Part shown: positions 7,261 through 20,702 of the stretch, in pieces | Position numbering within the stretch: position 1 is the stretch's first letter | How the letters are laid out: every line of letters starts with the position of its first letter | Virus record (IMG/VR): IMGVR_UViG_3300050120_000230 | Span: 1-64,000 of that record | Source of the DNA: a virus | Length of the DNA stretch: 64,000 nucleotides | Reading direction: 5' to 3' (one strand) | The notes under the pieces: model-generated | Database searches by the model: none | The model's input: only the letters and a program-made list of their open reading frames with translations | Told to the model about the DNA's origin: nothing | Program-made: the position numbers and the translations under genes

Positions 7261-7263
7261 TCA

Positions 7264-7737
7264 GTGCGCGAATACATCGACATTCTGGCCGAAGCTCAGA
7301 GCCAAATCCCACCCGAGCTTGCTGCCCAAATCCTTTCAGACCGGCTTTGCAAGCACGGGGTGAAACTGGCGCCGAGCGCACGTCTGTGGCGTGGCGAGGG
7401 TTCTGAAGGCGGAAGCGGGTTCGCCACCTATGGCCGAGGGCTCTACTTCACCGCTGATCGCAAAGTCGCGGCCGAATATGCCGGAGACGATGGCGAGATC
7501 GTCGAAATCGCTCGGGCCTATCTTCCCGACAATGCGCTGCGTTTCGACACCACAAATGATTTCCAGATTTGGAAGCAGAGGGCTTACACGCTGCTGGGCT
7601 TCAGAGGCCCGCAGGAGTTCGCAGCCGCATACGATGATCTTGGCGTTTTCATCCGCACCCTTGATCCGACCATCGACGGCATCCAGATGTTCACGGGCAA
7701 AGACTCCGTCTTCGTCCTCTACGGAATGGACGAGTAA
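7264..7737 (+). CDS. ADP-ribosyltransferase-like protein with capsid targeting sequence
   Basis: 157 residues starting MREYIDILAEAQSQIPPELA. The first ten residues match the capsid targeting sequence of T4 internal proteins (T4 IPII/IPIII begin MKTYQEFIAEA), with a prohead-protease-type site LAE/A at 10/11. The rest resembles the ART/PARP fold: LWRG at 42-44 as the first NAD-binding strand, YGRGLYFTADRKVAAEYA at 56-73 as in the G-x-G-[IL]-Y-F segment of PARP-like enzymes, and acidic residues near 79-81. No helical domain or other module. Prediction: packed in the head and injected, then modifying a host target, as T4 Alt does. The GTG start and late promoter fix this N-terminus. ART assignment is from motifs only. 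Confidence 0.65.
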   Translation: MREYIDILAEAQSQIPPELAAQILSDRLCKHGVKLAPSARLWRGEGSEGGSGFATYGRGLYFTADRKVAAEYAGDDGEIVEIARAYLPDNALRFDTTNDFQIWKQRAYTLLGFRGPQEFAAAYDDLGVFIRTLDPTIDGIQMFTGKDSVFVLYGMDE

Positions 7738-7794
7738 TATCCTTGACCGGATAGCGTTCCGTGGGATCATGCCTCAACAGTTATGGAGGCTCCT

Positions 7795-8052
7795 ATGTGG
7801 TTCATGAAGCCGAAGGTCGTGCCGGTTCCTCCGCGTCGAGTTGAACTGCGTCCCGAAGAGAAGACCGTCATCGCGAAGTTCGCCGAAGGCGATGAAGACA
7901 TGAAGCCCCACGCCATTGCGTGCTATCGTCGCAACATCGGCCGGGTGCCGAAGACGACTGCCGAGATGGGCTTCATGGCTGAAATCGATACGCGTTCGCC
8001 CGATCTGGCGATGCGTTCGTATTTCCGCCGCCGGGTGCTCGGCCAAGCATGA
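7795..8052 (+). CDS. Hypothetical protein, 85 residues
   Basis: Starts MWFMKPKVVPVPPRRVELRP; the ATG at 7795 has a GGAGG ribosome binding site, better placed than the ATG at 7783. Basic C-terminus with a helical SYFRRRVLGQA. First of three overlapping genes (7795, 8049, 8282), so probably one operon. Function not recognised. Confidence 0.65.
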   Translation: MWFMKPKVVPVPPRRVELRPEEKTVIAKFAEGDEDMKPHAIACYRRNIGRVPKTTAEMGFMAEIDTRSPDLAMRSYFRRRVLGQA

Positions 8053-8285
8053 AATCATCTCGTCCCAAGATCGCCCGAATGACCGGAGACGAATTTCGCG
8101 ATTTCAACGCGGAGTTTCCTTATCGTGCTCGCATCCCTATGGGCGAACACGGGACCGACCCGGAACGGGGGCTGATCGAACGCTTTTTTCGAAGCATCAA
8201 TTCGCCCGTGGCGACCAGCACTAATCTCGTCTATCTGACAACGGTCTCCGATCTCACGCTCCTGAAACTGGGAATGTATCGGTGA
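8049..8285 (+). CDS. Hypothetical protein, 78 residues
   Basis: Overlaps the previous gene by ATGA and the next by GTGA, so translation is likely coupled. Starts MKSSRPKIARMTGDEFRDFN. No recognised motif. Confidence 0.6.
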   Translation: MKSSRPKIARMTGDEFRDFNAEFPYRARIPMGEHGTDPERGLIERFFRSINSPVATSTNLVYLTTVSDLTLLKLGMYR

Positions 8286-8548
8286 TCCTTCGTGATGTCC
8301 CATGGTCTGATCTGAAGATCGGCCAAGGGGTTTCCGTCACGAGCACCACCGATGTGATGCTCGGCACCATCGTCCGACTCGAACGCGAACCCATGATCTG
8401 GATCGCGTGGAAAGACGGCAACCACCAAGAATATCACCAATCAGTTCTTCCGCATGTGGAATTGCTGGATGAAGTTGAACACGCCGGATCGCACGATTTT
8501 GATAAAATCTTGACCGACCGCGAATTTATTGACGCCGAAGGGGAATAA
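8282..8548 (+). CDS. Small SH3-like hypothetical protein
   Basis: 88 residues from a GTG overlapping the previous stop. The N-terminal half (SDLKIGQGVSVTSTTDVMLG, then IWIAWKDGNHQEY) has the pattern of small SH3-like barrel proteins found in T4-like phages; the C-terminus is acidic. Family link is tentative. Confidence 0.6.
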   Translation: MILRDVPWSDLKIGQGVSVTSTTDVMLGTIVRLEREPMIWIAWKDGNHQEYHQSVLPHVELLDEVEHAGSHDFDKILTDREFIDAEGE

Positions 8549-8568
8549 ATCTCGGGCGAGGCGGGTCA

Positions 8569-8576
8569 TATAAATA
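8569..8576 (+). promoter_or_regulatory. T4-type late promoter TATAAATA
   Basis: Exact match to the T4 late consensus octamer. Its last A is also the A of an in-frame ATG, so that ATG cannot be the start on a transcript from here; the start at 8603 lies 26 bases downstream with a GGAG site. Confidence 0.65.
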
Positions 8577-8602
8577 TGAAGTCTGTTCGGAGCCCCCGCC
8601 CC

Positions 8603-9160
8603 ATGGAAATGCGTCGCCTCATTGACCTGTCCACCCCGAGAAAACTCACCGAGAGTGAGCAACGAACCATTTTGAAACCCAAGCGCGGTAAAAATGGTCT
8701 TTTCATCGAAGTGAAAGATGCCAGCGCGGAGCGCGAGACGATTGAAAATCACAATCGCGAACGGTTCGCCAATCACTTCCACTACGCAGACAAATTCGCA
8801 GGGAATACGAACACCTTCGATGCCGAGGGCGACTACAACTGCGGGCGCTGCAACCAAGCGGACGACAAATATTGCCTGCTGCTGGATATCAAGTCCATCG
8901 ACCCGGCGGCTGGTAGCTGCGGAGATTGGGAGAACATCGACGCGGGCGATCCCGAGATGATGCTCAATGAGAAATCCCCGGAAGAAGCCGCCTATGGTGT
9001 TGCCGCGAACGGCAAGGGATTCGGATGCCATCGGTGCCCGTTCGCCAGTCGCGCGTTCGAACCCGACAGCCGAGGCCGGGACAAATATTGCGGCAAGGGC
9101 GATTTCCGGGTGTTCGACAATGCGTGCTGCTCTCTGAATGGCGCCGAACTCAAGAAATAA
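8603..9160 (+). CDS. Cys-rich protein, possible head-packaged protein
   Basis: 185 residues from ATG 8603 (GGAG ten bases upstream). Two Cys clusters, YNCGRCNQADDKYCLLL with a following GSCGDW, and GFGCHRCPFASRAFE followed by DKYCGKG and DNACC, suggest a zinc- or iron-sulfur-binding fold. The N-terminus MEMRRLIDLSTPRKLTESEQ resembles the capsid targeting sequences of its neighbours, with a possible cleavage site LTE/S, but the match is weaker. Driven by an exact late promoter. Function otherwise unknown; high-potential iron-sulfur-type proteins are one possibility. Confidence 0.6.
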   Translation: MEMRRLIDLSTPRKLTESEQRTILKPKRGKNGLFIEVKDASAERETIENHNRERFANHFHYADKFAGNTNTFDAEGDYNCGRCNQADDKYCLLLDIKSIDPAAGSCGDWENIDAGDPEMMLNEKSPEEAAYGVAANGKGFGCHRCPFASRAFEPDSRGRDKYCGKGDFRVFDNACCSLNGAELKK

Positions 9161-9230
9161 GTCGTTGACCAAATCCTTGACTTTCTAGCGATCACCGATA
9201 GGTTGCCCCTACACTATGTCGCGGGGTATC

Positions 9231-9596
9231 ATGTCCAAAATCGGTTTCGCCACTGTCGCTCTCGCCGCCTTGCTGCTCACAAGCTGTGAGGCCCCGGACA
9301 ACGGCCCGGAGAATGCCATGGGGCGAGCCAAAGGCTTCGTTGAAGGCATGGGTTGGAAGCCCACTCAAGTCGAGGTGCTCGCCGAGGGCAAGCCCTGCGC
9401 GAAAGCCGAATATGGCGTTCTGGTTCGCGAAGAGAAAGCCCCCATCGACCGGGTCGCGCTGGTGTGCGTGCCGCAAGCGTCCTACACGGTGACCACGGAC
9501 GGTGGTGTGCCGGTGCCCCGCGCGGTGCAATTCTCCGTCCCGGCGAACGTGGCTCCCGCGCCGCCGGAACCGGCTCCGGCCGAAGTCAGCAAGTAA
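9231..9596 (+). CDS. Predicted lipoprotein, 121 residues
   Basis: Signal sequence MSKIGFATVALAALLLTSCE with lipobox LTSC, so likely lipid-anchored and periplasm-facing. Pro/Ala-rich C-terminal tail. The ATG at 9231 has GGGG upstream; the in-frame ATG at 9216 would add five residues. The intergenic bases 9161-9230 hold TTGACC (9165) and TTGACT (9178) but no clear -10. One base separates it from the aminotransferase gene, so it heads that operon. Confidence 0.7.
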   Translation: MSKIGFATVALAALLLTSCEAPDNGPENAMGRAKGFVEGMGWKPTQVEVLAEGKPCAKAEYGVLVREEKAPIDRVALVCVPQASYTVTTDGGVPVPRAVQFSVPANVAPAPPEPAPAEVSK

Positions 9597-9597
9597 G

Positions 9598-10671
9598 ATG
9601 GCCACATCCACCCAATACAACCCGCAAGTCGAACTCAACAAGGTGCTGCTGAGCGCCGGGGTGAGCAAGACCGTCTACGCTCTCGTCACGCCGGAAACGG
9701 AAGCGACGAAGGCCGTGGCGTTCGGGGATGCGGGTAGCGCCGAGCGCGAGGAATATCTCGACCAGTTTCGGGATGCGTGGACCGGCAAGCAGGATCGTTT
9801 CCACGAAGAGTTCTTCGAAACTTGGGCCGAATGGTCGAAGCCGATGGTCGATCTCGACCGCAAGCTGTTCCCGTTCTTCTATCCGACCGCTGGGGCCAGC
9901 GAGCCGCTTCGTCATCTGATCTACGAGTTCGCCGCCCGGCGATACAAGCAGGGTGCTCTCGAACCGTTCATTCACGTCTTCGAGGGTGAATACGAAGGCT
10001 ACAAGGCTATGGCCGAAGCCGCCGGGCTCGAAGTGATCGAACATGATCGCGCCGACTGGGAAAATGTCGCCGATATTATGGGGCGGGCTGACGACAACCA
10101 CCTCTTCTTCCTGAGCCAGCCGTCCGCCATCGACGGCAACATCTGGGAAGACGCCCCGAAGTTTCTGGCGAAGATTTCCGAGCACATGGCGTGGAGCCAA
10201 TGGCCGGTCGATCCGAGGGTCGTGATGGACCTGACCTATGTCGGCGCCGTCGCCGATGTGAAGATGAAGTTCAACATGAACGAACCCTGCGTCCGCAACG
10301 TGGTGTTCAGTCTCTCCAAGCCGTTCGGCACCTATTACGACCGCATCGGCGGCGTGTTCTGCCGGTGGGAAGACGCGGGTCTGTTCGGCAACAAGTGGTT
10401 CAAAGGTCTCACCGGCCTTCGGATCGGCACGCTGATGATGCAGCGCCATCATGTGTTCGAACTGCCGCGCAAATATCTGCACTATCAGCACCTCGCCGCC
10501 GCGCACGCGAGCAAGGCTCTGGGATTTGAGTTCACCCCGGCCGATGTGTATCTTCTGGCCACGGCGCCTGCCGGAGGCGACTTGCCAATGGCCAACTACC
10601 TTCGACGGGCGGGAAAACTTCGAGTGTGTGTCACGCCCGCGATGGCCAAGATGATCGCGGAGAACGCGTAA
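9598..10671 (+). CDS. PLP-dependent aminotransferase-like enzyme (fold type I)
   Basis: 357 residues. Fold type I features in order: PTAGASEPLRHLIYEF (96-111) as the cofactor phosphate-binding turn, FEGEYEGYKAMAEAAG (128-143), LSQPSAIDGNIW (172-183) in place of the usual N-P-x-G segment, VVMDLTYVGA (208-217) with the Asp that holds the pyridine ring, and SLSKPFGTYYDRIGG (238-252) with K241 as the likely Schiff-base Lys. Arg in GLRIG (273-277) may bind the substrate carboxylate. Substrate unknown; amino acid or sugar transamination are possible. The gene overlaps the next by one base and sits in a packed operon with an HExxH protein, suggesting one pathway. Phage copies are uncommon; a role in nucleotide or surface modification is speculation. 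Confidence 0.75.
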   Translation: MATSTQYNPQVELNKVLLSAGVSKTVYALVTPETEATKAVAFGDAGSAEREEYLDQFRDAWTGKQDRFHEEFFETWAEWSKPMVDLDRKLFPFFYPTAGASEPLRHLIYEFAARRYKQGALEPFIHVFEGEYEGYKAMAEAAGLEVIEHDRADWENVADIMGRADDNHLFFLSQPSAIDGNIWEDAPKFLAKISEHMAWSQWPVDPRVVMDLTYVGAVADVKMKFNMNEPCVRNVVFSLSKPFGTYYDRIGGVFCRWEDAGLFGNKWFKGLTGLRIGTLMMQRHHVFELPRKYLHYQHLAAAHASKALGFEFTPADVYLLATAPAGGDLPMANYLRRAGKLRVCVTPAMAKMIAENA

Positions 10672-11012
10672 TGGCTTGGCTCCTGACCGCCGACATGGAC
10701 ACCGAAGGCCACGGACGAGAAGGCTTCTTGGACGGATGGCATGTCGTTGCCTTCAGCCGGAAACCGGCCGCGCTCAAAGCCAAGGCGAAAATCGAGGCGC
10801 TGATTTCTGAGATCAATGCAGCGGTTCACGATCTACAACCCTATGAGCGCGGAGAGGCAGTCGTCGAAACTCCGCAGTGGCGTGAACTCGTCGCCTCGTT
10901 CCCGAAAGCGTTCGGAGAATATCCCACCGCCTATTTCAATGAACACGATTTTTCGACGGACAGGGACTTCAACGTCCTGCTCGATGTCGTCCCCTTGGAG
11001 GTTCGTCGATGA
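10671..11012 (+). CDS. Hypothetical protein between aminotransferase and HExxH genes
   Basis: 113 residues starting MAWLLTADMDTEGHGREGFL. Start overlaps the aminotransferase stop (TAATG) and the end overlaps the next gene (ATGA). Mixed alpha/beta composition, no recognised motif. Tight coupling implies a shared function with its neighbours. Confidence 0.65.
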   Translation: MAWLLTADMDTEGHGREGFLDGWHVVAFSRKPAALKAKAKIEALISEINAAVHDLQPYERGEAVVETPQWRELVASFPKAFGEYPTAYFNEHDFSTDRDFNVLLDVVPLEVRR

Positions 11013-11845
11013 AGAACATTCAGTGCATCGCCGACAAGGCGGAAATCCACACGTTCGTCATGCGCTTGTGGAAAACGGATATGTTCCGTGAGTCTCATAG
11101 GGCTGGCGGGTTCATCTTCCGAGCCGTCGAGCGGTTCGCATGGCTTCCGCGCGTGTTCGCGGAGATGTCGAACGATCATCTGGAACGGGCTCACTTCTCG
11201 TCATGGTGGGGCGTGACGATGCTGCGCGAGGATTACACCAACCCGGTCATCCACGATCTCTATCTTCTGCACGAATTCTACCACGCCGCCCACATGCCCT
11301 ACATCCCGAACATCGGGAAGGCGGCCTTCGACGACAAGATGCAACGCAACGAACTCGAAGCGAGCGTCCTGTCCGAAATCGCGGTCTACTTCGAGATGCC
11401 CGGCCTACGCGAAGTGTCCTTCGATCACGACATCTACGCGGATCGGTTCCTCAACGACCCGGTCATGAACGTGCTCTGGAAGACCAACAAGGACGTGGCC
11501 GTCGAGACCATTCGCTCGATGCGTCGGGACGTGATGGTCAGCAAGCCCGAACACCTCATGGACCTGACGGAAAGCTGGATTCGTCGGTTTGCCGAGCAGA
11601 ACGCCATCTACTCGATTACGTGGTCGGATCGCTATCTGGAAGTCGAACGCCGGATGGCGGACTTGCAGACGCAGGCCGCCGCCGACCGGAACGATGCCCT
11701 GAAGTACCACGTCGATTGGATCATTCGCGAAGCCGAACGTGATCCACTGGACAACGTGCCTTTCCGTCAAGAGGCCGAACTGTTCGCTACGTTCTATTGG
11801 GCGAACAAGGAAAAATATTCGGTGGCAATGGCGAAGAACAAATGA
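11009..11845 (+). CDS. HExxH-containing protein, putative metallohydrolase
   Basis: 278 residues starting MKNIQCIADKAEIHTFVMRL. LLHEFYHAAHMPY (87-98) contains HEFYH, the zincin-type zinc-binding motif, and NELEASVLSEIAVYFEMP downstream offers a third Glu ligand, as in gluzincins. The remaining sequence is helical and unfamiliar. No signal peptide, so it acts in the cytoplasm. Coupled by overlaps to the aminotransferase cluster. It could be a peptidase or another metal-dependent enzyme; HExxH alone can occur by chance. Confidence 0.55.
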   Translation: MKNIQCIADKAEIHTFVMRLWKTDMFRESHRAGGFIFRAVERFAWLPRVFAEMSNDHLERAHFSSWWGVTMLREDYTNPVIHDLYLLHEFYHAAHMPYIPNIGKAAFDDKMQRNELEASVLSEIAVYFEMPGLREVSFDHDIYADRFLNDPVMNVLWKTNKDVAVETIRSMRRDVMVSKPEHLMDLTESWIRRFAEQNAIYSITWSDRYLEVERRMADLQTQAAADRNDALKYHVDWIIREAERDPLDNVPFRQEAELFATFYWANKEKYSVAMAKNK

Positions 11846-12033
11846 CCCGTTCCGAGGAATACCGCGCCAAGGCGGCCGAGATGCGCGACGAGGCGGCGAA
11901 GACGAACCTGCCGCTGGTGCGTCAACAGCATCTCATTGCCGCCAAGGTGTGGGACAGCATGGCCGACCGCGAAGATCATGCGATCCGCCAAGCCGACGAC
12001 CGTCGCGCGAGCATTCAAAAGGAACCGGGATGA
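11842..12033 (+). CDS. Small helical protein of a type common in Rhizobiales
   Basis: 63 residues: MTRSEEYRAKAAEMRDEAAK followed by a helix with ...HLIAAKVWDSMADRED. The ATG overlaps the previous stop (ATGA). Small proteins with this YRAKAAE...MA-R pattern are widespread in alphaproteobacterial chromosomes, so this is a hint to the host and perhaps to transfer from it. Function unknown. Confidence 0.65.
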   Translation: MTRSEEYRAKAAEMRDEAAKTNLPLVRQQHLIAAKVWDSMADREDHAIRQADDRRASIQKEPG

Positions 12034-12052
12034 CGTTTATGGTCACCGTCTG

Positions 12053-12514
12053 ATGGGAATGCCCTACGCCCTTCTGAAGCAAGACAAGCCCGAGGTTTTC
12101 GACCTTGGGAAGGGCGTTCGCATGGTCGGTTGGACCGAAGTGTTCGAACGCCGCTACGGGCCTCCCTTCAGCAATACCCCGGCGGACATTTTCAACATCT
12201 TCGGGTCGGACGACAAGGGCAATTTCTTGGAGCCGTTGCAGTCGCTCGATTTGGCGCTCCTGACCAAACGTCTCGAAAAATTCGATCACGGATATTCGGG
12301 CGAGGCGGCGGTTGTCGCCAAGCGGATCATCGACTGGATGGGTGACGATGTCTGCTATCTTTGCAACTACTGGGAAGAGCTTTCCGGCTGCATCGAGAGC
12401 CGCATGAGCGCGAAGAAAATCGCTGCCGAGTTCAACGATCTCGCCGTGAAACTTTCGGTCCCCATGGCCAAATACAAGGAAACCGGCGACGTGTGGGGCT
12501 CGGACCATGACTGA
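12053..12514 (+). CDS. Hypothetical protein, 153 residues
   Basis: Starts MGMPYALLKQDKPEVFDLGK (ATG 12053, in TGATG; ATG 12059 is an alternative). Contains RYGPPFSNTPADIFNIFGSD and a helical C-terminal half with two Cys (VCYLCNYWEELSGC). Not recognised. Overlaps the next gene by eight bases. Confidence 0.6.
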   Translation: MGMPYALLKQDKPEVFDLGKGVRMVGWTEVFERRYGPPFSNTPADIFNIFGSDDKGNFLEPLQSLDLALLTKRLEKFDHGYSGEAAVVAKRIIDWMGDDVCYLCNYWEELSGCIESRMSAKKIAAEFNDLAVKLSVPMAKYKETGDVWGSDHD

Positions 12515-12902
12515 AAAACTTCAGCGCACAAAATTCGCGATCTATGATCCCACGACGAAGCTCTTCGTTTCGAAGAAACGTGGCTATCTCCAAAACATTT
12601 GGACTGACCAGTTCGAAAACATTCAGAGCTATGCCATTCCGAGCAACGCACTCGAAATACAGCAGTGGGCGAAGTCCATGGCGCCTGCGGCCGAGATCAT
12701 CGAATTGACGATCACACTGGAATGGACCACTGCAAAGTCCGACTTCTCAATCGAAGACACGTCACAGTTCAAGAAGCACAAGGCGTTCTACGACAAGTTC
12801 CTTCCGGCGGTTGAGAAGGACGTGGACTCGCTGAGTGACGCCGACTGGAAGCGTTTCAAAAACGCTCGATATTTCCTTCAACGGGCAAAGGTCATCCCAT
12901 GA
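12507..12902 (+). CDS. Hypothetical protein, 131 residues
   Basis: Starts MTEKLQRTKFAIYDPTTKLF; reads as a small alpha/beta protein with a lysine-rich, acidic helical C-terminus. Overlaps both neighbours (eight and four bases). No recognised family. Confidence 0.6.
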   Translation: MTEKLQRTKFAIYDPTTKLFVSKKRGYLQNIWTDQFENIQSYAIPSNALEIQQWAKSMAPAAEIIELTITLEWTTAKSDFSIEDTSQFKKHKAFYDKFLPAVEKDVDSLSDADWKRFKNARYFLQRAKVIP

Positions 12903-13276
12903 GTTTCGCATCCGTGGCCTGTCCCGAGACCGATAAACCGTGTTCGGCTATCTCATGCGTAAATGCGGGAATTCCACTCTCGACGTGCATTCACCGTGGT
13001 GTCGAGCAGTTCGTCGGCCGCTCGCACGGTGATCCCCGGACGGAGATCATCTGGAAGAGCCTGCCCTACTATCCGCACGGCTTCATCGTGCCCGCGCTGA
13101 ACACACAGAATACGCCAACAGCGATCCTGAACTGGCTGGACGAAAACTGCGAGTTCGGCGACTGGGTGCGCTATTTCGGGACGTTCCGTTTCAAGTCGAA
13201 ACAAACGTCCGACTCGTTTCGTCTCTGGCTTCTCGAACAAGCTCGCCCTGACTTGAAGAAAGTTCTCGCAGCCTGA
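12899..13276 (+). CDS. Hypothetical Cys-containing protein with FKL-type C-terminus
   Basis: 125 residues starting MSFASVACPETDKPCSAISC; four or five Cys lie in the first 35 residues, possibly a metal site. The C-terminal part (NWLDENCEFGDWVRYFGTFR, then SDSFRLWLLEQ) resembles the ends of the small proteins at 18529, 40871 and 56450. Ends in TGATG shared with the next gene. Confidence 0.6.
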   Translation: MSFASVACPETDKPCSAISCVNAGIPLSTCIHRGVEQFVGRSHGDPRTEIIWKSLPYYPHGFIVPALNTQNTPTAILNWLDENCEFGDWVRYFGTFRFKSKQTSDSFRLWLLEQARPDLKKVLAA

Positions 13277-13428
13277 TGTTCATGCGCTGGCGCCTTCCCA
13301 AGCGGTTCTGGGGTCATCCTGACAACTGGAACGATGCGGCGTGGGACGAATACATGGATCGCGGCATGAGCGGTCACTGGTATGATCGGCTCGTATGCTG
13401 GTGGAGAGGGTGGGAAAAGAGTGTCTAG
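13276..13428 (+). CDS. Trp-rich small protein, 50 residues
   Basis: From the ATG in TGATG: MFMRWRLPKRFWGHPDNWND, then AAWDEYMDRGMSGHWYDRLV and CWWRGWEKSV. Eight Trp in 50 residues. Strong coupling to the previous stop supports expression. Function unknown. Confidence 0.55.
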   Translation: MFMRWRLPKRFWGHPDNWNDAAWDEYMDRGMSGHWYDRLVCWWRGWEKSV

Positions 13429-13630
13429 GCCAGAACTGCATCTGCAAGTCGTTCGCGAAGCGGTTGTCGAGAAACTGTCGCTGGGCGGCGAAGTAGTATC
13501 CGACGCGGGCGTTGATCGGATCGTCGATCAAGTGATGACAATGCTGGAAAGCAAAGCTATCGGGACCATTGCCGAGTTGCACGCCGGTATTGACGCAGCC
13601 ATCGCGAAAGAACTCGGGCGCGGCAACTGA
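13421..13630 (+). CDS. Hypothetical helical protein, 69 residues
   Basis: GTG at 13421 starts MSRPELHLQVVREAVVEKLS, overlapping the previous gene by eight bases; a longer start at 13382 is inside that gene and has no binding site. Helix-rich, acidic. Not recognised. Last gene before a promoter. Confidence 0.55.
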   Translation: MSRPELHLQVVREAVVEKLSLGGEVVSDAGVDRIVDQVMTMLESKAIGTIAELHAGIDAAIAKELGRGN

Positions 13631-13635
13631 TATTG

Positions 13636-13663
13636 TTGACAGCATGGAAACCTGTGAGATCAT
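13636..13663 (+). promoter_or_regulatory. Sigma70-like promoter
   Basis: TTGACA (13636-13641), 16-base spacer, GATCAT (13658-13663), reading into the gene at 13687. The -10 box lies within a perfect palindrome, which suggests repression by a dimeric regulator. Confidence 0.6.
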
Positions 13664-13672
13664 CTGATCTCA
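13655..13672. promoter_or_regulatory. Operator-like palindrome over the -10 box
   Basis: TGAGATCATCTGATCTCA: perfect 8-base arms with a TC centre. It covers the -10 box of the 13636 promoter; as RNA it could also form a short hairpin just upstream of the AGGAG ribosome binding site at 13676. Confidence 0.6.
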
Positions 13673-13686
13673 CATAGGAGCCCTGC

Positions 13687-14243: not shown

Positions 14244-14656
14244 TGATCGTATGCGTAGAAGAATGCACCGAAACTAAGATCGGCCAAACCCCCGGCACGC
14301 CCGAGGGCTGGCGTGACTCGCGCGACTATGCGCGAGACTCTTCCACTAGTTTCATCCGCGTTGATCGGCTTGCCGCCAACAACCCGCTGCGTGTGGCTAT
14401 CGAACACGCCATTGCATGGCAACGGGAGATGGGTGACGAGCGGATGAACTACGACTATGACGGCGAACTGCCGTATCCCTATTCGTCTTCAATTTACGCG
14501 AACACCAACGGCGCGAGCGACTCCGAGGTGTTCGTGGAAGACCACGAGTTTCCCCTGATGGTGGAAGCCAGCATTCGTCTCTGCATCGAGGAAGATGGGG
14601 CAGTCGTTCGCCAGTTGCGCGAAGCTGACGTTCGCAAGTGCATCGAGAACGGTTGA
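14243..14656 (+). CDS. Hypothetical protein, 137 residues
   Basis: Starts MIVCVEECTETKIGQTPGTP, sharing one base with the previous stop. Tyr/Asp-rich middle (MNYDYDGELPYPYSSSIYAN). No recognised motif. Confidence 0.6.
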   Translation: MIVCVEECTETKIGQTPGTPEGWRDSRDYARDSSTSFIRVDRLAANNPLRVAIEHAIAWQREMGDERMNYDYDGELPYPYSSSIYANTNGASDSEVFVEDHEFPLMVEASIRLCIEEDGAVVRQLREADVRKCIENG

Positions 14657-14681
14657 CTTAATCTCTTTGGTCAACCATTCT
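14653..14681 (+). promoter_or_regulatory. Possible sigma70-like promoter with GGTCAACC
   Basis: TTGACT (14653-14658), 17-base spacer, CATTCT (14676-14681). The spacer contains the recurring palindrome TGGTCAACCA (14668-14677). The -10 is poor, so this is tentative. Confidence 0.35.
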
Positions 14682-14706
14682 CCCATAGCTTAGCTTGGGG
14701 GTTCAA

Positions 14707-14979
14707 ATGGCTAAATGGCGGGATATTTTCAAAGGCATCGGAACATGTATTCTACTGCTTTTCGCTTTCCTGATACTTCGGTCGTGTGATCCAGACGTAG
14801 AGATCAAGCGGGCACAGGCACGAGCCGATGATGCATATGCCCTAGCGGACGAAGCACGAGTAAAGCAAGAAGACGCTGAAAATCGGTTGGCTGATACTGA
14901 GACAAAGCTAAAGGATGCAGATGACCGATTAACGGCTATCGAGCAAAAAATCTGCGGAGGGAGCACCTGTGATGAGTAA
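14707..14979 (+). CDS. Membrane-anchored coiled-coil protein, spanin-like
   Basis: 90 residues from ATG 14707 (GGGGGT site). An N-terminal membrane helix (GTCILLLFAFLILRSC) is followed by a long coiled coil (AQARADDAYALADEARVKQE and on to about residue 82) and a Cys-containing tail. This is the layout of inner-membrane spanins (Rz type), and the next overlapping gene is exported. But the partner lacks a lipobox, so the spanin reading is only a possibility. Confidence 0.6.
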   Translation: MAKWRDIFKGIGTCILLLFAFLILRSCDPDVEIKRAQARADDAYALADEARVKQEDAENRLADTETKLKDADDRLTAIEQKICGGSTCDE

Positions 14980-15502
14980 TCGGATGTTCAAGACAATTCT
15001 CATCGCCGGTGCGGTTCTGATGCTCGCGGCCCCAGTCCATGCGTTAGAACGCGATGGCTTCCGTGTCGGAATGACGTTTGACGAGGCCCAAAAAACTGTG
15101 CCGCTTGGCTACTCTCTCAAGCTTCTTCCGAATGCCACTTCTATTTTCCAAGCCTACATTCCCATAAATGATAGGCAAGACGTGTTTGGTAGCCTCGCGT
15201 TTTGTCGTGGCCATTTGATTTCCTATGCCAGCCCAAATATTAACGTGGACGGCGAATACATCAACGAAGTTGAGAGGGCGATTTCTATCTATGGCTCCCA
15301 GCCCAGAACAAAAGTAATTAGTTCTTCGTGGTCTGGTAGAGGCGGCGGCACGATCCAAACTATGTCGTTGACTTGGACTCTGGTTTCCGGCGAGCAATAT
15401 GAAATTGATCTACTTCCCCAAGGCCACGATTCATATGGTAACGTTAGTCACATAGCGTCGGCCTTCGTCCGCATCGCTGCACAAAATACCCGTTGTAGCT
15501 GA
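14972..15502 (+). CDS. Exported protein with signal peptide, 176 residues
   Basis: ATG at 14972 (GGAGGG upstream) overlaps the coiled-coil gene by eight bases. Signal peptide MFKTILIAGAVLMLAAPVHA cleaved by signal peptidase I; the mature part is beta-rich with two Cys that could form a disulfide. Pairing with a membrane coiled-coil protein suggests a periplasmic complex. Not recognised. Confidence 0.65.
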   Translation: MSNRMFKTILIAGAVLMLAAPVHALERDGFRVGMTFDEAQKTVPLGYSLKLLPNATSIFQAYIPINDRQDVFGSLAFCRGHLISYASPNINVDGEYINEVERAISIYGSQPRTKVISSSWSGRGGGTIQTMSLTWTLVSGEQYEIDLLPQGHDSYGNVSHIASAFVRIAAQNTRCS

Positions 15503-15507
15503 AAATA

Positions 15508-15536
15508 TTGACCACGGTTGGGCGAACAGGTAACTT
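15508..15536 (+). promoter_or_regulatory. Sigma70-like promoter
   Basis: TTGACC (15508-15513), 17-base spacer, TAACTT (15531-15536), reading into the small basic gene at 15567. Confidence 0.5.
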
Positions 15537-15566
15537 GAGAGCATAGCTCATCAAGGATATATTCAA

Positions 15567-15698
15567 ATGACTACCTCTAAAAAAGATGCCAGCAAAGCTG
15601 GCAAAATCCTGCGCGAAAGCAAGGATAAAGACATGAAGAGCGTCGCGGCTTCTGATTTGGCCCAGACGAAACGAAATACCACGAAGAAAAAGAAATGA
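15567..15698 (+). CDS. Small lysine-rich protein, 43 residues
   Basis: MTTSKKDASKAGKILRESKD, then KDMKSVAASDLAQTKRNTTK and KKK. Very basic and hydrophilic, like small nucleic-acid-binding or AT-hook-free DNA-associated proteins. AAGGA lies 13-9 bases upstream and the stop overlaps the next start (ATGA). Function inferred only from charge. Confidence 0.6.
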   Translation: MTTSKKDASKAGKILRESKDKDMKSVAASDLAQTKRNTTKKKK

Positions 15699-15952
15699 TC
15701 GGTTCGCGCATCACAACTCTCTTGGGTGTGGGTTCCATCCAAAAGATTAACGGAAGCATCGCAACCGTGAAATTGGACGAAGCCATGAAAGTCATGGCGA
15801 CCCAAGAAATCTTTGACACGGTTGATGTGAATACCGCCGAAGAACCTCGTGTGGGAATTTATATGGCCGTGCTACCGGTCTTAAATAATCCGCCGCCCGG
15901 TGACCTTGGCGATCAACTCTATCATAAGGCCAGTCTCCGGCGTCTCGCGTAA
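15695..15952 (+). CDS. Hypothetical protein, 85 residues
   Basis: Starts MIGSRITTLLGVGSIQKING; overlaps the lysine-rich gene by four bases. Mostly beta with a C-terminal basic tail. Not recognised. Confidence 0.6.
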   Translation: MIGSRITTLLGVGSIQKINGSIATVKLDEAMKVMATQEIFDTVDVNTAEEPRVGIYMAVLPVLNNPPPGDLGDQLYHKASLRRLA

Positions 15953-15966
15953 GGAAACCCCTTTTC

Positions 15967-15973
15967 ATAAATA
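15967..15973 (+). promoter_or_regulatory. T4-type late promoter motif (ATAAATA)
   Basis: Five bases before the ATG at 15979, i.e. exactly where a T4-like late promoter would place transcription start on the A of the start codon. Confidence 0.6.
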
Positions 15974-15978
15974 CTCGT

Positions 15979-16473
15979 ATGCGCGAGTTCATGAATATCG
16001 TCAACGAAGGTCTGGCCGGAGAGGACGAGATGCTCAGTGAGGCAACACCGCGAAACTTCGGAAAATGGGCGGCGAGCATGGCCGGAGCAGCCGCGCTGGC
16101 GGCGGGGCTCAGTGGCTGCTCTGACACAACGTCTGGCAGTCCTACACCGGTTGTGAGCAAGGCAGATTGCGAGAGTGATGGCGGTGCCGGGTGCGAAACG
16201 GAAGCCGACAGTCCAGAAGGCGCCGAGGCTATCGACTATAAGAACGAGTGGAACAGGCGCCTTTGCCTTGCACAAGGTGGTGACTGGGACTCAAGTTCCA
16301 TGATACCCACCAAAATTGCCGATCACCCGCTCCGTGGGATGTGTAGCAATATAAGACAAAGAGATGCTTGTGCCGATGTTGGGGCCTGTCCCGAACTGGA
16401 TGATAAGGGCATGAAACAATGGGACAGGGATTGGTGGAAAGCGCACCCGAATCTCATCCAACCGAAACCGTGA
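15979..16473 (+). CDS. Capsid-targeted protein with internal lipobox-like segment
   Basis: 164 residues. The N-terminus MREFMNIVNEGLAGEDEMLS matches the capsid targeting sequence pattern, with possible prohead-protease sites VNE/G (10/11) and LSE/A (21/22). Next comes a hydrophobic segment ending in a lipobox-like AGLSGC (MAGAAALAAGLSGCSD), then a hydrophilic region with eight Cys. Known T4 internal proteins enter the cell with the DNA. A trimmed form exposing a lipoprotein-type signal would be a new twist, but lipid attachment of an injected protein is speculation. Late promoter directly upstream. Confidence 0.6.
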   Translation: MREFMNIVNEGLAGEDEMLSEATPRNFGKWAASMAGAAALAAGLSGCSDTTSGSPTPVVSKADCESDGGAGCETEADSPEGAEAIDYKNEWNRRLCLAQGGDWDSSSMIPTKIADHPLRGMCSNIRQRDACADVGACPELDDKGMKQWDRDWWKAHPNLIQPKP

Positions 16474-16514
16474 CCAATTTCCGATAATGCATCATGTGCG
16501 CGTAAGGGATCGCG

Positions 16515-16718
16515 ATGGAACCTAAACTGACCGTGAAATTCTACGTTTCGGCATATGACGAAAGCGGCTACGGGGACAATCGATCAAAAGATTTCGACAG
16601 TGGTGACGCCGCCGTAGCGTATGCCGAATCTTTGGAGGCCCGGTTCCACGCGTCGGTCTATAAGCGGATCACGATGGAGCCCATGAGCATCCAAATTTGG
16701 CCGATCCGCGAACCTTGA
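16515..16718 (+). CDS. Hypothetical protein, 67 residues
   Basis: Starts MEPKLTVKFYVSAYDESGYG; small alpha/beta protein with AAVAYAESLEARFHASVYKR. Its last 50 bases overlap the convergent gene 17025-16669, so one of the two ends is embedded in the other. A GGGATCG precedes the ATG. Confidence 0.55.
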   Translation: MEPKLTVKFYVSAYDESGYGDNRSKDFDSGDAAVAYAESLEARFHASVYKRITMEPMSIQIWPIREP

Positions 16719-17025
16719 TGTCCACTGCGCGAGCTTCTCGCGCATCGTATGCATTCCATCGCATCCGGGCGATCACGATGTTCGCGTCGGTGACTGATCC
16801 AAGTTCGAAATGCTGGGTCACTGGTTGGTTCGGCCAATGCACAGCGTGGCCCAATCTCTGCAACTTATAAACCTCGTTGCGTTCCGGCATAGGCTTGGCA
16901 TCGAACTCCTGCCAATCGGATTGGTAGAACTGCGAGCCGAGATAGTGCCAACCGGGATGATGCTCGTCCAACCAGTCGTGAACCTCTGCCGTTTGACGGT
17001 AGAGGATCGGAAACGTCATAATCAT
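16669..17025 (-). CDS. Hypothetical protein downstream of the lipid desaturase
   Basis: 118 residues starting MIMTFPILYRQTAEVHDWLD, ATGA overlap with the gene upstream. Contains EHHPGWHYLGSQFYQSDWQE; the C-terminal 17 residues overlap the convergent gene 16515-16718. Third gene of the run 17707, 17183, 17025. No recognised family. Confidence 0.6.
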   Translation of the reverse strand: MIMTFPILYRQTAEVHDWLDEHHPGWHYLGSQFYQSDWQEFDAKPMPERNEVYKLQRLGHAVHWPNQPVTQHFELGSVTDANIVIARMRWNAYDAREARAVDIKVRGSAKFGCSWAPS

Positions 17026-17183
17026 TTGGCGCGCAGACGTTCGATCTCGTCGGCCGCTTCGTCCAGTAGATCGGCGATACGATCCCGCTGGCCTTCCTGA
17101 ACGGATTTTCGACTCGGTATTTGGCGCCTGATTTCCGCACGTTTGCGGAGCCGGTAGACCAGATCGGTTTCATCCTCAATCAT
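17022..17183 (-). CDS. Small helical protein, 53 residues
   Basis: MIEDETDLVYRLRKRAEIRR then IPSRKSVQEGQRDRIADLLD and EAADEIERLRAK. The C-terminal LLDEAADEIERLR pattern is frequent in small phage and bacterial proteins of unknown role. Four-base overlaps with both neighbours (ATGA) show translation coupling to the desaturase. Confidence 0.65.
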   Translation of the reverse strand: MIEDETDLVYRLRKRAEIRRQIPSRKSVQEGQRDRIADLLDEAADEIERLRAK

Positions 17184-17707
17184 TTCGTTCCACGATTTGG
17201 CTCAAGGCCAACCCACGTCAAAATTGTTTCCAGCCCGGCCCAGAAGCCGATCCCGTCGAGGATCGGGTTCAGGATGTTCGTCAACGGGCAGTAGCGACGA
17301 TCCTCATGCCTGTGATGACCATTGTGGTGGTTCGGAGACTGGATGATCCCGATCTCCTGCAACATCAAAAATCTGCCCGGCCGGTGCGTGAGAACATGCA
17401 CTTCGTTCAACAGCAGGCCACCCAAAGTGGCGAAGAACCATACGAACGACGGACCCGCGAGACCAAACCAAACGGCGCTCACGATGCTGACGGCAACCCA
17501 CGTTTCGATATTGCGATAGATCAGAGAGTTCCCGAGGAAAGACTGTGGATCAGAATGATGTAGGCGATTGGCCTTGATGACCATCGGCCCGATCAGCGGC
17601 ATGTCTTCTCGTCCCACACGGTCTTCCCACCAGTGAAAAACGCCACCCGCAAAATCTGCGATGAGCCAACCGAGCAATGATTGGCCAAAAATTCGGAAAT
17701 CGTCCAT
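17180..17707 (-). CDS. CarF/TMEM189-like lipid desaturase (plasmanylethanolamine desaturase family)
   Basis: 175 residues; family members are about 270. All signature elements align by eye: WLIADFAGGVFHWWEDRVG (14-32, compare ADFASGLVHW in TMEM189), NRLHHSDP (47-54), NEVHVLTH (101-108), LQEIGIIQSPNHHNGHHRHE (116-135), then YCPLTNILNPILDGIGFW and LE (139-160). That gives ten His, H25, H50, H51, H104, H108, H127, H128, H131, H132 and H134, able to bind a di-iron centre. The helices WVAVSIVSAVWFGLAG and FVWFFATLGGLLL place it in the membrane. CarF makes the vinyl-ether bond of plasmalogens; the phage enzyme may use another lipid. Late motif plus TAGGAG precede it. Family call is firm by motif; substrate is inference. 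Confidence 0.85.
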   Translation of the reverse strand: MDDFRIFGQSLLGWLIADFAGGVFHWWEDRVGREDMPLIGPMVIKANRLHHSDPQSFLGNSLIYRNIETWVAVSIVSAVWFGLAGPSFVWFFATLGGLLLNEVHVLTHRPGRFLMLQEIGIIQSPNHHNGHHRHEDRRYCPLTNILNPILDGIGFWAGLETILTWVGLEPNRGTK

Positions 17708-17713
17708 GTCTCC

Positions 17714-17720
17714 TATTTAT
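17714..17720 (-). promoter_or_regulatory. T4-type late promoter motif (ATAAATA)
   Basis: Six bases before the desaturase ATG; the motif runs into the ribosome binding site TAGGAG. Confidence 0.55.
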
Positions 17721-17723
17721 GGG

Positions 17724-18062
17724 TCAGACCATCTTTAACATCAGAGCGAACTTCTCGCGGGCTGCGACAAGCTCAGCCGAGAGTCCTTTGATCTGTTCGA
17801 CCAATTCTTCGGCTTCTTCCAGAGTTTCGACCCGTTTCACGACATGCTTCATCTCGACTTCGTATTGGCCGGGGTTTCGAGATTGAAGGACCGCCGGATG
17901 AATAGCGCGCGTCCAAGTGTATTGCGGAACAGTGACCAGCCCTCGTCCCAAGGACGCCAGACTTCGGCCGATATAATTGCCGTTGTTCGATTCCCGCCAA
18001 AAGCTCCGAACCTCGAAGACATTCCACACGCCGTTTTCGTCGGAGACGAGGACGTAGCTCAC
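17724..18062 (-). CDS. Hypothetical protein with C-terminal coiled coil
   Basis: 112 residues from GTG 18062 (MSYVLVSDENGVWNVFEVRS), overlapping the stop of the upstream gene (GTGA). Beta-rich N-terminal half, then a helix VKRVETLEEAEELVEQIKGL that could form a coiled coil. Not recognised. Confidence 0.6.
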   Translation of the reverse strand: MSYVLVSDENGVWNVFEVRSFWRESNNGNYIGRSLASLGRGLVTVPQYTWTRAIHPAVLQSRNPGQYEVEMKHVVKRVETLEEAEELVEQIKGLSAELVAAREKFALMLKMV

Positions 18063-18247
18063 TGGTAGTCTTCCGGGTAGAGATGCATCACCGCGCCGTT
18101 GTAGCGCGACAGCCACGTCATGAGCGCCTTATCCATGGCTACGGCACGAACAGAGTTGCCATGATGCAAGGCAACTCGCTTGGCGCGGCCGTAACGGCGC
18201 CATTTGCGTTCGCACTTTCGCATAAACTTGTAGAGCTTGTGATCCAT
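18059..18247 (-). CDS. Small basic protein, 62 residues
   Basis: MDHKLYKFMRKCERKWRRYG and on to a C-terminus AVMHLYPEDYQ. Strongly basic N-terminal helix, possibly nucleic-acid binding. Coupled to the following gene by overlap. Confidence 0.6.
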   Translation of the reverse strand: MDHKLYKFMRKCERKWRRYGRAKRVALHHGNSVRAVAMDKALMTWLSRYNGAVMHLYPEDYQ

Positions 18248-18265
18248 TGGACCACCGTATCGTAA

Positions 18266-18529
18266 TCAGATGCCGAAGAACATTTTGAAAAGCGTCGCTG
18301 CTTCCTGATCCTTGAAGAACGCGCACTTCATGCTCGGGTGCGGGGCCTCGTTCGGAGCACAGATCGTATACCATCCATCGCCTCGCCCGTTTTCACAGAC
18401 GCCGACGTTCTCTCGCAACCATTTGAAGCCTTCTCTACTCAGCCAATGGCCTTCGAGATGATCCGGTGATATTGCAACCCGGTAGGGATGATACCCGGAA
18501 CTGTCTTTCTTTGTCGAAGTAGGATGCAT
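18266..18529 (-). CDS. Small protein of the FKL-motif family
   Basis: 87 residues starting MHPTSTKKDSSGYHPYRVAI and ending MKCAFFKDQEAATLFKMFFG plus I. The ending F-x-F-x-D-x-x-x-A-x-x-F-K-x-F recurs in the genes at 40871 and 56450. A CATAAT box lies just upstream on the minus strand. Function unknown. Confidence 0.6.
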   Translation of the reverse strand: MHPTSTKKDSSGYHPYRVAISPDHLEGHWLSREGFKWLRENVGVCENGRGDGWYTICAPNEAPHPSMKCAFFKDQEAATLFKMFFGI

Positions 18530-18566
18530 CCCACATTATGCCCTCTAATGCTGCATGGGTCCAACA

Positions 18567-18950
18567 ATGACGTTCTATCACGCCACCTATCGACATCGTC
18601 TGGATTCCATCCGCCGACATGGGCTGACGCCCACGGTGGCTGATCCCAATTTCCCCGGCGCGGAGCCCGGCGTCTATTTGGCGTCCGATCCGATGATTCC
18701 GGTGGCGTTTTTGCTCGAACACAGCATCGAAAACGCAAATGAGAAGGATAATCCGAGCCAAATCGTCGAAAACTTCGTGGTTATCGTCATCGACGACTCG
18801 CGGCTGGACAAACGGAAGCTAGGTCCCGACCCACAACTGTCAGAGCAAGAAGGCTTGTGGTGCTATCGCGGTGTGATCGATGTGACGAACATGCCAATAT
18901 TGGATATCGCGACCTTGCAACTATCCCACTTGCCTGCCGACCACAGTTGA
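18567..18950 (+). CDS. Second ADP-ribosyltransferase-like (Tpt1/DarT-type fold) protein
   Basis: 127 residues from ATG 18567; ATG 18555 would add four. TFYHATYRHRLDSIRRHGL (2-20) has the H-x-T strand followed by a helix and GL turn typical of KptA/Tpt1, DarT and related ART-fold proteins, and GAEPGVYLASDPMIPVAFLL (31-50) carries the G-V-Y-L strand with the second catalytic position (Y37). Acidic candidates near 93-95 precede LWCYRGVIDV. No capsid targeting sequence. It could modify nucleic acid or protein, or be inactive. Divergent from the gene 18529 by 37 bases. Confidence 0.6.
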   Translation: MTFYHATYRHRLDSIRRHGLTPTVADPNFPGAEPGVYLASDPMIPVAFLLEHSIENANEKDNPSQIVENFVVIVIDDSRLDKRKLGPDPQLSEQEGLWCYRGVIDVTNMPILDIATLQLSHLPADHS

Positions 18951-18980
18951 GCTACGGATTGGGTGAGCAGGAGAACCCTC

Positions 18981-19382
18981 ATGAAGACTTTCTACACCTC
19001 GAACTATGAACGCAGCAGCACGAGCCCCCTCGCCGTGTCCATCAGCAACCCCGCCGATGTGCCCGCGACCTACGAAGGCGCCCGCGATGCCGACCTGTCG
19101 CCGACCGACGACCTTCTGGAACGCTACCACGCCCGCGACGTGAGCCATGAAGGCTACGCCGCCGCCTACATCGCGCTGCTCGGCGAGCGCGGCATCACGC
19201 CGCAAAGCATCGCCGACAAGTTCGAGGAAGGCACGATCTTCGTGTGCTACGACTACGAGGACGGCGCCAGCGGTTCGGAAGATGCCGACACCGGCACGGC
19301 CGACGACCTGAGCATCTGCCACCGGGTGTTCCTGTCCAAGTGGCTGAACGATTCCGGCGTGGTCACGATCTCCGAAATCTAA
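18981..19382 (+). CDS. DUF488-like protein
   Basis: 133 residues, ATG 18981 with AGGAG. TFYTSNYERSS at the N-terminus and FVCYDYED, then ICHRVFLSKWLNDSG near the C-terminus, match the DUF488 pattern (a Y-T-S start, a Cys strand and C-H-R-x-x-L-x-x-W-L). DUF488 function is unknown, though conserved Cys/His suggest an enzyme or metal site. It follows the ART-like gene by 30 bases in the same direction, so the two may be co-expressed. High Ala/Asp content. Confidence 0.55.
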   Translation: MKTFYTSNYERSSTSPLAVSISNPADVPATYEGARDADLSPTDDLLERYHARDVSHEGYAAAYIALLGERGITPQSIADKFEEGTIFVCYDYEDGASGSEDADTGTADDLSICHRVFLSKWLNDSGVVTISEI

Positions 19383-19392
19383 CGCTCCGAGA

Positions 19393-19445
19393 GGGCTCTG
19401 TGAGGCTGTCAGGACGTTTGTTCTGAGAATAGCACCACGGAGCCC
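19393..19445. terminator. Nested hairpin between convergent genes, probable bidirectional terminator
   Basis: GGGCTCTGTG (19393-19402) pairs with CACGGAGCCC (19436-19445), ten pairs including one G-U. Its loop holds a second hairpin CAGGAC/GTTCTG. It lies between the stop of the DUF488-like gene and the end of the kinase-like gene on the other strand. There is no U-run, so termination is inferred from position. Confidence 0.5.
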
Positions 19446-19486
19446 CCGGTAGTGCTAAGAGCCGCCCACGGCCCGGAAAATGGCCT

Positions 19487-20131
19487 CTACGCGGCCATTG
19501 ACGCGCGCTTGGCGCCTGTCATCAGATCGGCGATCTGTTTCGTGAGAACCGGATCGAGCACGACTATGCTGCCGTCTGCCTTTTGCATGAAGTTCGACAG
19601 GCCGAGATCGAAGTGGAAATCTTCGGGATCGGGGTCCTTCTTCTTCACGAACTGCATCAAGTCGTAGAGGATGTGGCCCTCGAAGTCGCCGAACGAGCGC
19701 ACGAACGCTTGCAGCGACATTTTCTCCATGAAGAAACCGCGTTTCTCGGAGTGGGTCAGGAACTTGTGGTAAATTTGGTTGAAGGTCGTGATGATCTTCT
19801 TGACCATGCGCTCGTTGTCTTGATCGAGCCGTTCGTATTTCGGCATCTCGAAGATGTAGATCGGGAGCGCCTTGAACTTTGCGATCTTGTGCGAGCCTGA
19901 CTGGTATTCTCCCAGACGCTTTGCGATACCGAGGTGATCCAGCCATTCACCCTTCATCTTGTCGCGAGTGAGCAGGATGACGTTGCCGTCACCTTTGTCC
20001 AGCGCCAGACTGCTGACGCCTTGGCCAAGCACCCGCAATCCCTTGAACTGCTCTGGTACTTCGTCCTGCTGAACGCCGACCCATTGATGTTCCGGCGCCT
20101 CGCGGAGAATGGCGAAATCGCTGATCTTCAT
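19487..20131 (-). CDS. Protein-kinase-like protein with capsid targeting sequence
   Basis: 214 residues. N-terminus MKISDFAILREAPEHQW fits the capsid targeting pattern with protease site LRE/A (11/12). The rest has kinase landmarks: glycine-rich loop VLGQGVSS (34-41), Lys in NVILLTRDKMKGEW (50-63), a hinge-like IYIFEMPKYERLD (91-103), the catalytic loop HFDLGLSN (173-180) with D175 and N180, and LDP (192-194) with D193 in the place of the DFG Asp, as in aminoglycoside-phosphotransferase-like kinases. The fold is smaller than a full kinase (about 200 residues). Predicted to be injected and to phosphorylate a host or phage target. Its ATG is five bases after the stop of the upstream capsid-targeted gene. 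Confidence 0.68.
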   Translation of the reverse strand: MKISDFAILREAPEHQWVGVQQDEVPEQFKGLRVLGQGVSSLALDKGDGNVILLTRDKMKGEWLDHLGIAKRLGEYQSGSHKIAKFKALPIYIFEMPKYERLDQDNERMVKKIITTFNQIYHKFLTHSEKRGFFMEKMSLQAFVRSFGDFEGHILYDLMQFVKKKDPDPEDFHFDLGLSNFMQKADGSIVVLDPVLTKQIADLMTGAKRASMAA

Positions 20132-20135
20132 AGAA

Positions 20136-20702
20136 TCAGGGGCGGGGAATACGGGGCGACGCGGGGGCTGCTTGCGGAGTTTGCTGCTGTTGAGCCGCAG
20201 CGCGAGCGGCTGCACGTTCTGCATCGGCCTTGCGCTGCTCGATAGCGTCCCATGCTTCTTCTTCGGCTTCGTCTTCGCTGTGCCATGCACCCGACCACGT
20301 CTCTTCACCGGTCAGACGGAAGTAGTAGCCTTCGCCAGCACGATCTTCTTCACCGTCCGGGTCATCGTAGAAGAACTCGATCTCGAAAGGATCGTCTTCC
20401 ATCTTGGAAGGCCAGCCGGTGTTGGATTCGGTCATGACGGGCTCGATGTCGTCGAGGGTGAGGCGTGCAACATATTGCTCGCGACCATCTTCCTGTTCGT
20501 CATCGAATGCAACGAACACGTCAGGAGCATAGTCACTGCCGTGGTGACTGGGTTCGGAGCCGACCATGACACCTTCGCGGCCGGTCGCAGTTTCGCGAAC
20601 ACGCGCACCGTCTTCAGGGGCATCGTATTCGGTGTGGTGCACTTCGCCGTTGGGGTAACGAAGCTCGTTCGCTTCGTTGATGATGTCGATATACTTACGC
20701 AT
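20136..20702 (-). CDS. Acidic capsid-targeted protein
   Basis: 188 residues starting MRKYIDIINEANELRYPNGE, a capsid targeting sequence with site INE/A (10/11). The remainder is very acidic (FEIEFFYDDPDGEEDRAGEG) with a Gln/Ala/Pro tail. Residues 30-80 look beta-rich (ATGREGVMVGSEPSHHG). No enzyme motif. AAGGAG upstream. It sits between a virion fibre gene and the kinase-like gene and is probably transcribed with them. Likely an internal head protein. Confidence 0.65.
   Translation of the reverse strand: MRKYIDIINEANELRYPNGEVHHTEYDAPEDGARVRETATGREGVMVGSEPSHHGSDYAPDVFVAFDDEQEDGREQYVARLTLDDIEPVMTESNTGWPSKMEDDPFEIEFFYDDPDGEEDRAGEGYYFRLTGEETWSGAWHSEDEAEEEAWDAIEQRKADAERAAARAAAQQQQTPQAAPASPRIPRP

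Follow-up and report, generated by a model that had tools for sequence, protein, structure and literature searches.

Capsid-targeting-like N-termini on unrelated phage proteins suggest an expanded T4-style internal-protein system

The internal proteins IPI-IPIII and Alt of bacteriophage T4 share a short N-terminus with a hydrophobic face and a hydrophobic-x-Glu cleavage rule on otherwise unrelated bodies, one of which is an ADP-ribosyltransferase (ART). In the capsid targeting sequence (CTS) of IPIII, residues 4 and 7 serve targeting and residues 8 and 10 serve cutting, and the gp21 protease cleaves after L/I-X-E (PMC9026906). ART packaging in phage heads is an established theme (PMC9503650). 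Many head proteins of phiKZ, 201phi2-1 and SPN3US, including the inner-body or ejection proteins, are cut after x-x-Glu by a gp21 relative and are thought to be ejected; several of their propeptides exceed 100 residues (PMC5694885). Polyvalent proteins (Iyer et al. 2017, PMC5512222; Pfam ART-PolyVal) combine ART, GNAT (acetyltransferase) and other domains and are believed to enter the host together with the DNA. The subject here is the first 64 kb (the window) of the 415,409-base virus record IMGVR_UViG_3300050120_000230, in which the products of four genes begin with CTS-like sequences, referred to below as tags.

These genes very probably belong to an expanded T4-style internal-protein system. 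T4 has four internal proteins of this type, compared with approximately 30 to 38 tagged proteins in this record, and kinase-like, GNAT, hydrolase and other bodies are added to the ART. The tags span about 8 to 20 residues, as in T4 and unlike the long phiKZ-type propeptides, and they stand mostly on single-domain proteins, each tagged, rather than on one giant polypeptide of the polyvalent type. The literature searched contained no report of T4-type CTS tagging this extensive. We are confident, though short of certain, that the four products, and probably a fifth encoded at 8603, are members of this set of late proteins that would be packaged, cut and injected.

The original prediction placed four such N-termini at 7264, 15979, 20131 and 20702, and all four are present there: MREYIDILAEAQ (7264, GTG start), MREFMNIVNEGL (15979), MKISDFAILREAP (20131, minus strand) and MRKYIDIINEAN (20702, minus strand). 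The proposed likeness to the T4 CTS and gp21 pattern holds at the positions known to matter, with hydrophobic determinants at residues 4 and 7 followed by an L/I-x-E cleavage motif, and the ipII, ipIII, gp2, gp22 and alt N-termini in the T4 record have the same form. The 8603 product, ranked earlier as a weaker fifth, keeps that rank. Its N-terminus has a longer spacer before L-T-E, as in T4 ipI, and a leadered late promoter (TATAAATA) lies about 20 nucleotides (nt) upstream.

All start codons of the record were read to compile a tag inventory, and strong and weak cases were counted by hand. Tagged N-termini occur throughout the contig on about 30 strong and about 8 weaker genes, which answers the earlier proposal to scan the rest of the genome for more of them. 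The toolkit had been described as spread over 13 kb. Tagged genes do lie in that interval, but the set is genome-wide, and the window contributes 5 of its genes at about average density.

The tagged genes have the T4 late promoter core TAAATA at one of two distances from the start codon or lie in an operon behind such a promoter. Across the record, 47 called genes have TAAATA 4-6 nt before the start and approximately 35-40 others have it at 20-37 nt, with few at intermediate distances. The gene caller behind these counts gave a bonus to starts after TAAATA; counting ATG distances without gene calling gives the same peak, in which 22 ATGs stand at 4 nt and 30 at 5 nt. A spacing of 4-6 nt has no room for a leader, and the mRNAs of this class are therefore predicted to be leaderless. 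The window has the leaderless type at 7264 and 15979 and the leadered type at 8603 and 20712. Close relatives also have the leaderless class, with 17 examples over 128 kb, but it is essentially absent from the examined stretches of Agrobacterium phage Atu_ph07, Sinorhizobium phage Phosso and T4, where the T4 late genes checked have the 20-37 nt spacing only. No description of a leaderless form of T4-type late promoters was found in the literature searched. Caulobacter and Sinorhizobium make many leaderless mRNAs, and Caulobacter translates them as well as others (PMC4117421). The leaderless late promoters point to adaptation to hosts that translate such mRNAs well.

The association of tag and promoter was quantified with a T4-derived rule that demands a basic residue at positions 2-4 and hydrophobic-x-E ending at residue 7-12. 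The rule is matched in 21 of 50 genes with TAAATA 4-6 nt upstream, compared to a mean of 3.5 and a maximum of 11 for shuffled N-termini (1000 rounds), and the difference between leaderless-promoter genes and other genes has a Fisher P = 6e-12. The final residue is Glu-specific; in the same 50 genes the count is 21 for E, followed by 10 for L and 6 for N. Leadered-promoter genes match the rule at a rate near chance (2/37). Leaderless genes that begin with MR have a hydrophobic residue 7 in 84% of cases, versus 36% of other MR/MK genes, and a Glu at positions 8-10 in 84%.

The motif is concentrated where the promoter stands 4-6 nt from the start codon, and 23 of the 50 leaderless-promoter genes begin with MR; both observations could also reflect RNA-level selection of the first codons (ATGCG...) for 70S initiation on leaderless mRNA instead of head targeting. 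However, leaderless tail and structural genes begin with MD, MT, MA, MG, MV or MP and lack the motif, which is therefore not a by-product of leaderless initiation, and leaderless translation was rejected as its whole cause. The conserved features, a hydrophobic residue 7 and Glu at 8-10, are protein-level features. The motif is also retained in leadered genes of relatives (MTGIRKWINIITES in the related 457-kb record G001, MRWEQLTE in Atu_ph07) and is found in 20136-20702, whose Shine-Dalgarno sequence AAGGAG overlaps the stop codon of the tail-fibre-type gene. Codon selection is thus a very unlikely source of the tag.

The tail, terminase and sheath genes of the record establish kinship to Atu_ph07 and Phosso, and Caulobacter and Erythrobacter phages hold relatives of single genes; an alphaproteobacterial host is therefore likely. 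Cultured relatives are Atu_ph07 and the Sinorhizobium phages AP-J-162 and Phosso. The core of the original prediction, T4-type CTSs on unrelated bodies cut by a gp21-type protease in a T4-like phage probably of alphaproteobacteria, is strongly supported by the statistics, the late promoters, these relatives and a relative that bears the protease. Orthologues keep hydrophobic-x-E while other residues vary, as in the pairs MRIFQLFEA/MRLFHLFEG, MREFINLLEQ/MREFINLLER, MRWFEIINEA/MRWTEIFEA and MPTLLEMFGITEA/MPTLLELFDVNEA, and most of the orthologues compared also retain the promoter. A G001 orthologue with 27% identity still has IRKWINIITES. Atu_ph07 itself has an array, gp53-gp62, with CTS-like MRW(x)QLTE N-termini and ART-like R-S-E motifs. 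Alignment of gp54-gp62 shows tandem paralogues with invariant M1, W3, Q5, L6 and E8 and with ART-like YRG, S and E positions. The array lies inside the cluster of coding sequences 31-76, and mass spectrometry (MS) identified 29 products of this cluster in virions (PMC6102473); this cluster-level result supports, without proving, the packaging of tagged proteins. The published virion list of Atu_ph07 comprises 131 proteins. The array differs from the present set in consisting of tandem paralogues and leadered genes, and no similarity was detected between its bodies and the window genes.

Several points weigh against packaging and injection of the tagged proteins. The evidence for this phage is at the sequence level. 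MS detection in Atu_ph07 applies to the cluster as a whole, and the putative ART identity of that array is motif-based, unconfirmed by Pfam, PDB or profile comparison with T4 Alt. No gp21-type protease (Peptidase_S77), portal, full-length capsid gene or gp55 is found on the contig. The motif is short, and genes without a leaderless promoter match the rule in 32/567 cases versus 22.5 ± 4.3 for shuffled N-termini, barely over chance; without that promoter the motif is weak evidence for a single gene. Finally, 20136 and 19487 lack a promoter of their own. The last two points are also what would be seen if the four window N-termini were chance matches or products of common ancestry with no head connection. 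This explanation is opposed by the enrichment in the leaderless-promoter class far over shuffles, the Glu specificity, the unrelated bodies and the conservation in relatives. Two of the four genes have their own leaderless late promoter, and a single leadered late promoter precedes the other two; 20712-21968 is the probable head of an operon with 20136-20702 and 19487-20131, the latter beginning 4 nt past the stop of its upstream gene. A chance or ancestral origin has little to recommend it and is considered highly improbable.

The missing protease most likely stems from truncation of the contig with loss of the whole head block. The first genes of the contig correspond to 248.3-252.7 kb of G001, and its left end maps to approximately 20 kb from the G001 head block. 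The G001 stretch before those genes, at about 211-245 kb, contains genes for the scaffold, protease, portal and capsid, a clamp loader, PhoH and a gp55 relative. The contig lacks nearly all of them, non-head genes included, and for these reasons the absence of the protease was rejected as a refutation. The search for a gp21-type protease put forward with the original prediction thus failed on the truncated contig and succeeded in the relatives, where Peptidase_S77 is present in G001 (E = 3.8e-26) and in Atu_ph07 gp204 (E = 1.4e-21). A tagged ART-type gene (MRNYINICEE...VYHGT) adjoins the capsid gene in G001. Two gp23-type pieces were seen on the contig: a short piece matching Gp23 model positions 3-45 in an otherwise unrelated open reading frame (L013:4533-5084, minus strand; record 252116-252265) and a compact gp23-like protein (L021:1118-1876, plus strand; record 396617-397375). 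These capsid fragments are possibly decoys, remnants or minor head proteins.

Next to the protease gene of Atu_ph07 are gp205 and gp206, which have CTS-like N-termini, and T4 gp22, gp67 and gp68 bear such sites and are largely removed (PMC9026906). Tagged proteins could be components of the prohead core or assembly factors, processed and then discarded as the head matures; they would be present in the head but not injected as effectors. Such a role does not fit bodies that are enzymes acting on other macromolecules (ART, GNAT, kinase-like), that vary between relatives and that lie scattered across the genome, not in a head block alone. We consider a purely structural role unlikely, if a little less so than the codon-selection and chance explanations.

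Five tagged proteins score above curated Pfam cut-offs (Table 1). The ART at 267428 is homologous to part of a 2039-residue polyvalent-type protein of Caulobacter phage Jess A. The four window products had been described as an ART-like enzyme, a kinase-like enzyme, a lipobox protein and an acidic protein; the acidic body is plain, the lipobox is present and the kinase likeness is found with PHROG, but the ART at 7264 is sub-threshold. The 7264 product matches ART-PolyVal at E = 0.041, a PDB sequence search returned nothing, and a single-sequence AlphaFold model with a predicted local distance difference test (pLDDT) score of 36.6 was too poor to use; taken alone, its putative ART identity is weak. 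Directly upstream, 6229-7260 (plus strand) encodes an L,D-transpeptidase (YkuD, E = 6.8e-22) whose start resembles a signal peptide. The kinase call for 19487-20131 draws on matches to PHROG 3809 (E = 1.5e-7) and PHROG 15752 (T7-type protein kinase, E = 6.5e-5), which suggest a kinase-like body; Pfam and PDB gave no match, and the single-sequence AlphaFold model (pLDDT 38.3) was again too poor to use. No relatives of 7264, 19487 or 20136 were found in near-DNA and protein searches of phages and viral contigs, and 15979 has no family match in Pfam or PHROG searches. Three large tagged or near-tagged proteins at 270000-271760 (minus), 313545-315077 (plus) and 354921-356267 (minus) share a GINPxxxYxTPxGIYxYP-like motif, in variant form in 313545 and 354921, and have no match in Pfam.

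About 30 unrelated proteins share a T4-type head-loading front end, and the phage therefore probably delivers many host-modifying enzymes into the cell along with its DNA. At the late stage of infection, the tagged genes would be read from TAAATA promoters by the host RNA polymerase carrying a gp55-type sigma factor, and alphaproteobacterial ribosomes would translate the many leaderless mRNAs well. The N-terminus of 8-12 residues, which has a hydrophobic face, would bind the prohead scaffold core, and a gp21-type protease would cleave after hydrophobic-x-Glu. The mature protein would remain in the head beside the DNA and enter the next host with it. Injected ADP-ribosyltransferases, kinase-like proteins, the acetyltransferase and others may then modify host targets before phage gene expression, akin to T4 Alt and the internal proteins. 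If this is correct, a T4-type tag with a late promoter at a fixed distance predicts which among hundreds of unknown jumbo-phage proteins enter the cell as infection begins, and uncharacterised genes become candidates, open to testing, for roles in host take-over and anti-defence. The same enzyme families would then be delivered by two routes, polyvalent fusion and individual tagging.

The 15979 product has a possible second gp21-type site, LSE/A, at residue 21. Its LSGC lipobox lies about 45 residues in, after an internal hydrophobic stretch, and a signal-peptide role needs the prior LSE/A cut, which would uncover a signal peptide with LSGC at its end. In 102294 a hydrophobic segment similarly precedes the hydrolase domain. 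It is speculative that a second signal exposed after injection may take both proteins to the new host's periplasm or membrane. A broader and tentative proposal, which we find conceivable but rather doubtful, is that the lineage swapped a multidomain polyvalent protein, or a few T4 internal proteins, for a modular library of at least 30 late genes, each separately tagged and many leaderless. Any new enzyme body would join it through one compact cassette of late promoter, start codon and ten-codon targeting and cleavage tag, and 15979 and 102294 may be cut to expose an export signal.

Table 1. Tagged genes, promoters and associated features in the window and in the rest of the record
Position	Strand	Feature	Details
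7253..7263	+	Late promoter core ATAAATA, T4-type	Start codon 4 nt on; predicted leaderless mRNA
7264..7737	+	CTS-like MREYIDILAE/A on ART-like body	Motifs LWRG, GLYFT, DSVFVLY; ART-like sub-threshold or by motif only
8603..9160	+	Weaker candidate, Cys-rich body	N-terminus MEMRRLIDLSTPRKLTE/S, ipI-like spacing
15967..15978	+	Late promoter core ATAAATA, T4-type	Start codon 5 nt on; predicted leaderless mRNA
15979..16473	+	CTS-like MREFMNIVNE/G; then hydrophobic segment, LSGC lipobox	From sequence
19487..20131	-	CTS-like MKISDFAILRE/A on kinase-like body	Motifs GQGVSS, HFDLGLSN, LDP, by eye
20136..20702	-	CTS-like MRKYIDIINE/A on acidic body	47 D/E vs 17 K/R
20712..21968	-	Collar/tail-fibre-type gene	Pfam Collar E = 0.0097, sub-threshold; leadered late promoter CATAAATAC
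99136		ART-like	Sub-threshold or by motif only
102294		SleB-type (peptidoglycan) hydrolase	Above Pfam cut-off; weaker tag
106555		ART-PolyVal	E = 2.3e-18, above curated Pfam cut-off
152724		Strong N-terminus MREWINLVE
162172		Strong N-terminus MRDLMNLVES
172769		Strong N-terminus MRDWIKLFED
196781		GNAT (acetyltransferase)	Above Pfam cut-off
248514		Strong N-terminus MREFINLLEQ	ART-like, sub-threshold or by motif only
249665		ART-like	Sub-threshold or by motif only
260938		Strong N-terminus MRDFINLVEN
267428		Strong N-terminus MRIFQLFEA; ART-PolyVal	E = 8.7e-12, above curated Pfam cut-off
309657		ART-like	Sub-threshold or by motif only
358481		Strong N-terminus MRYWEIISE
369263		ADPrib_exo_Tox (ADP-ribosyltransferase exoenzyme)	E = 1.7e-5, above Pfam cut-off; weaker tag, Asp replaces final Glu

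Three further genes of the window were recorded. A Lipid_desat protein of the plasmanylethanolamine desaturase/CarF family, unusual in a phage, is encoded at 17180-17707 on the minus strand (Pfam E = 2.4e-30) behind a leaderless-type late promoter, and its relatives are found in an Erythrobacter phage and one uncultured giant phage. The product of 53310-54620 (minus strand) is an M16 (insulinase-type) peptidase with both domains (E = 2e-39). Several PAS domains are present in the product of 56937-58151 (plus strand), and a weakly similar Atu_ph07 protein is annotated as a sensor histidine kinase.

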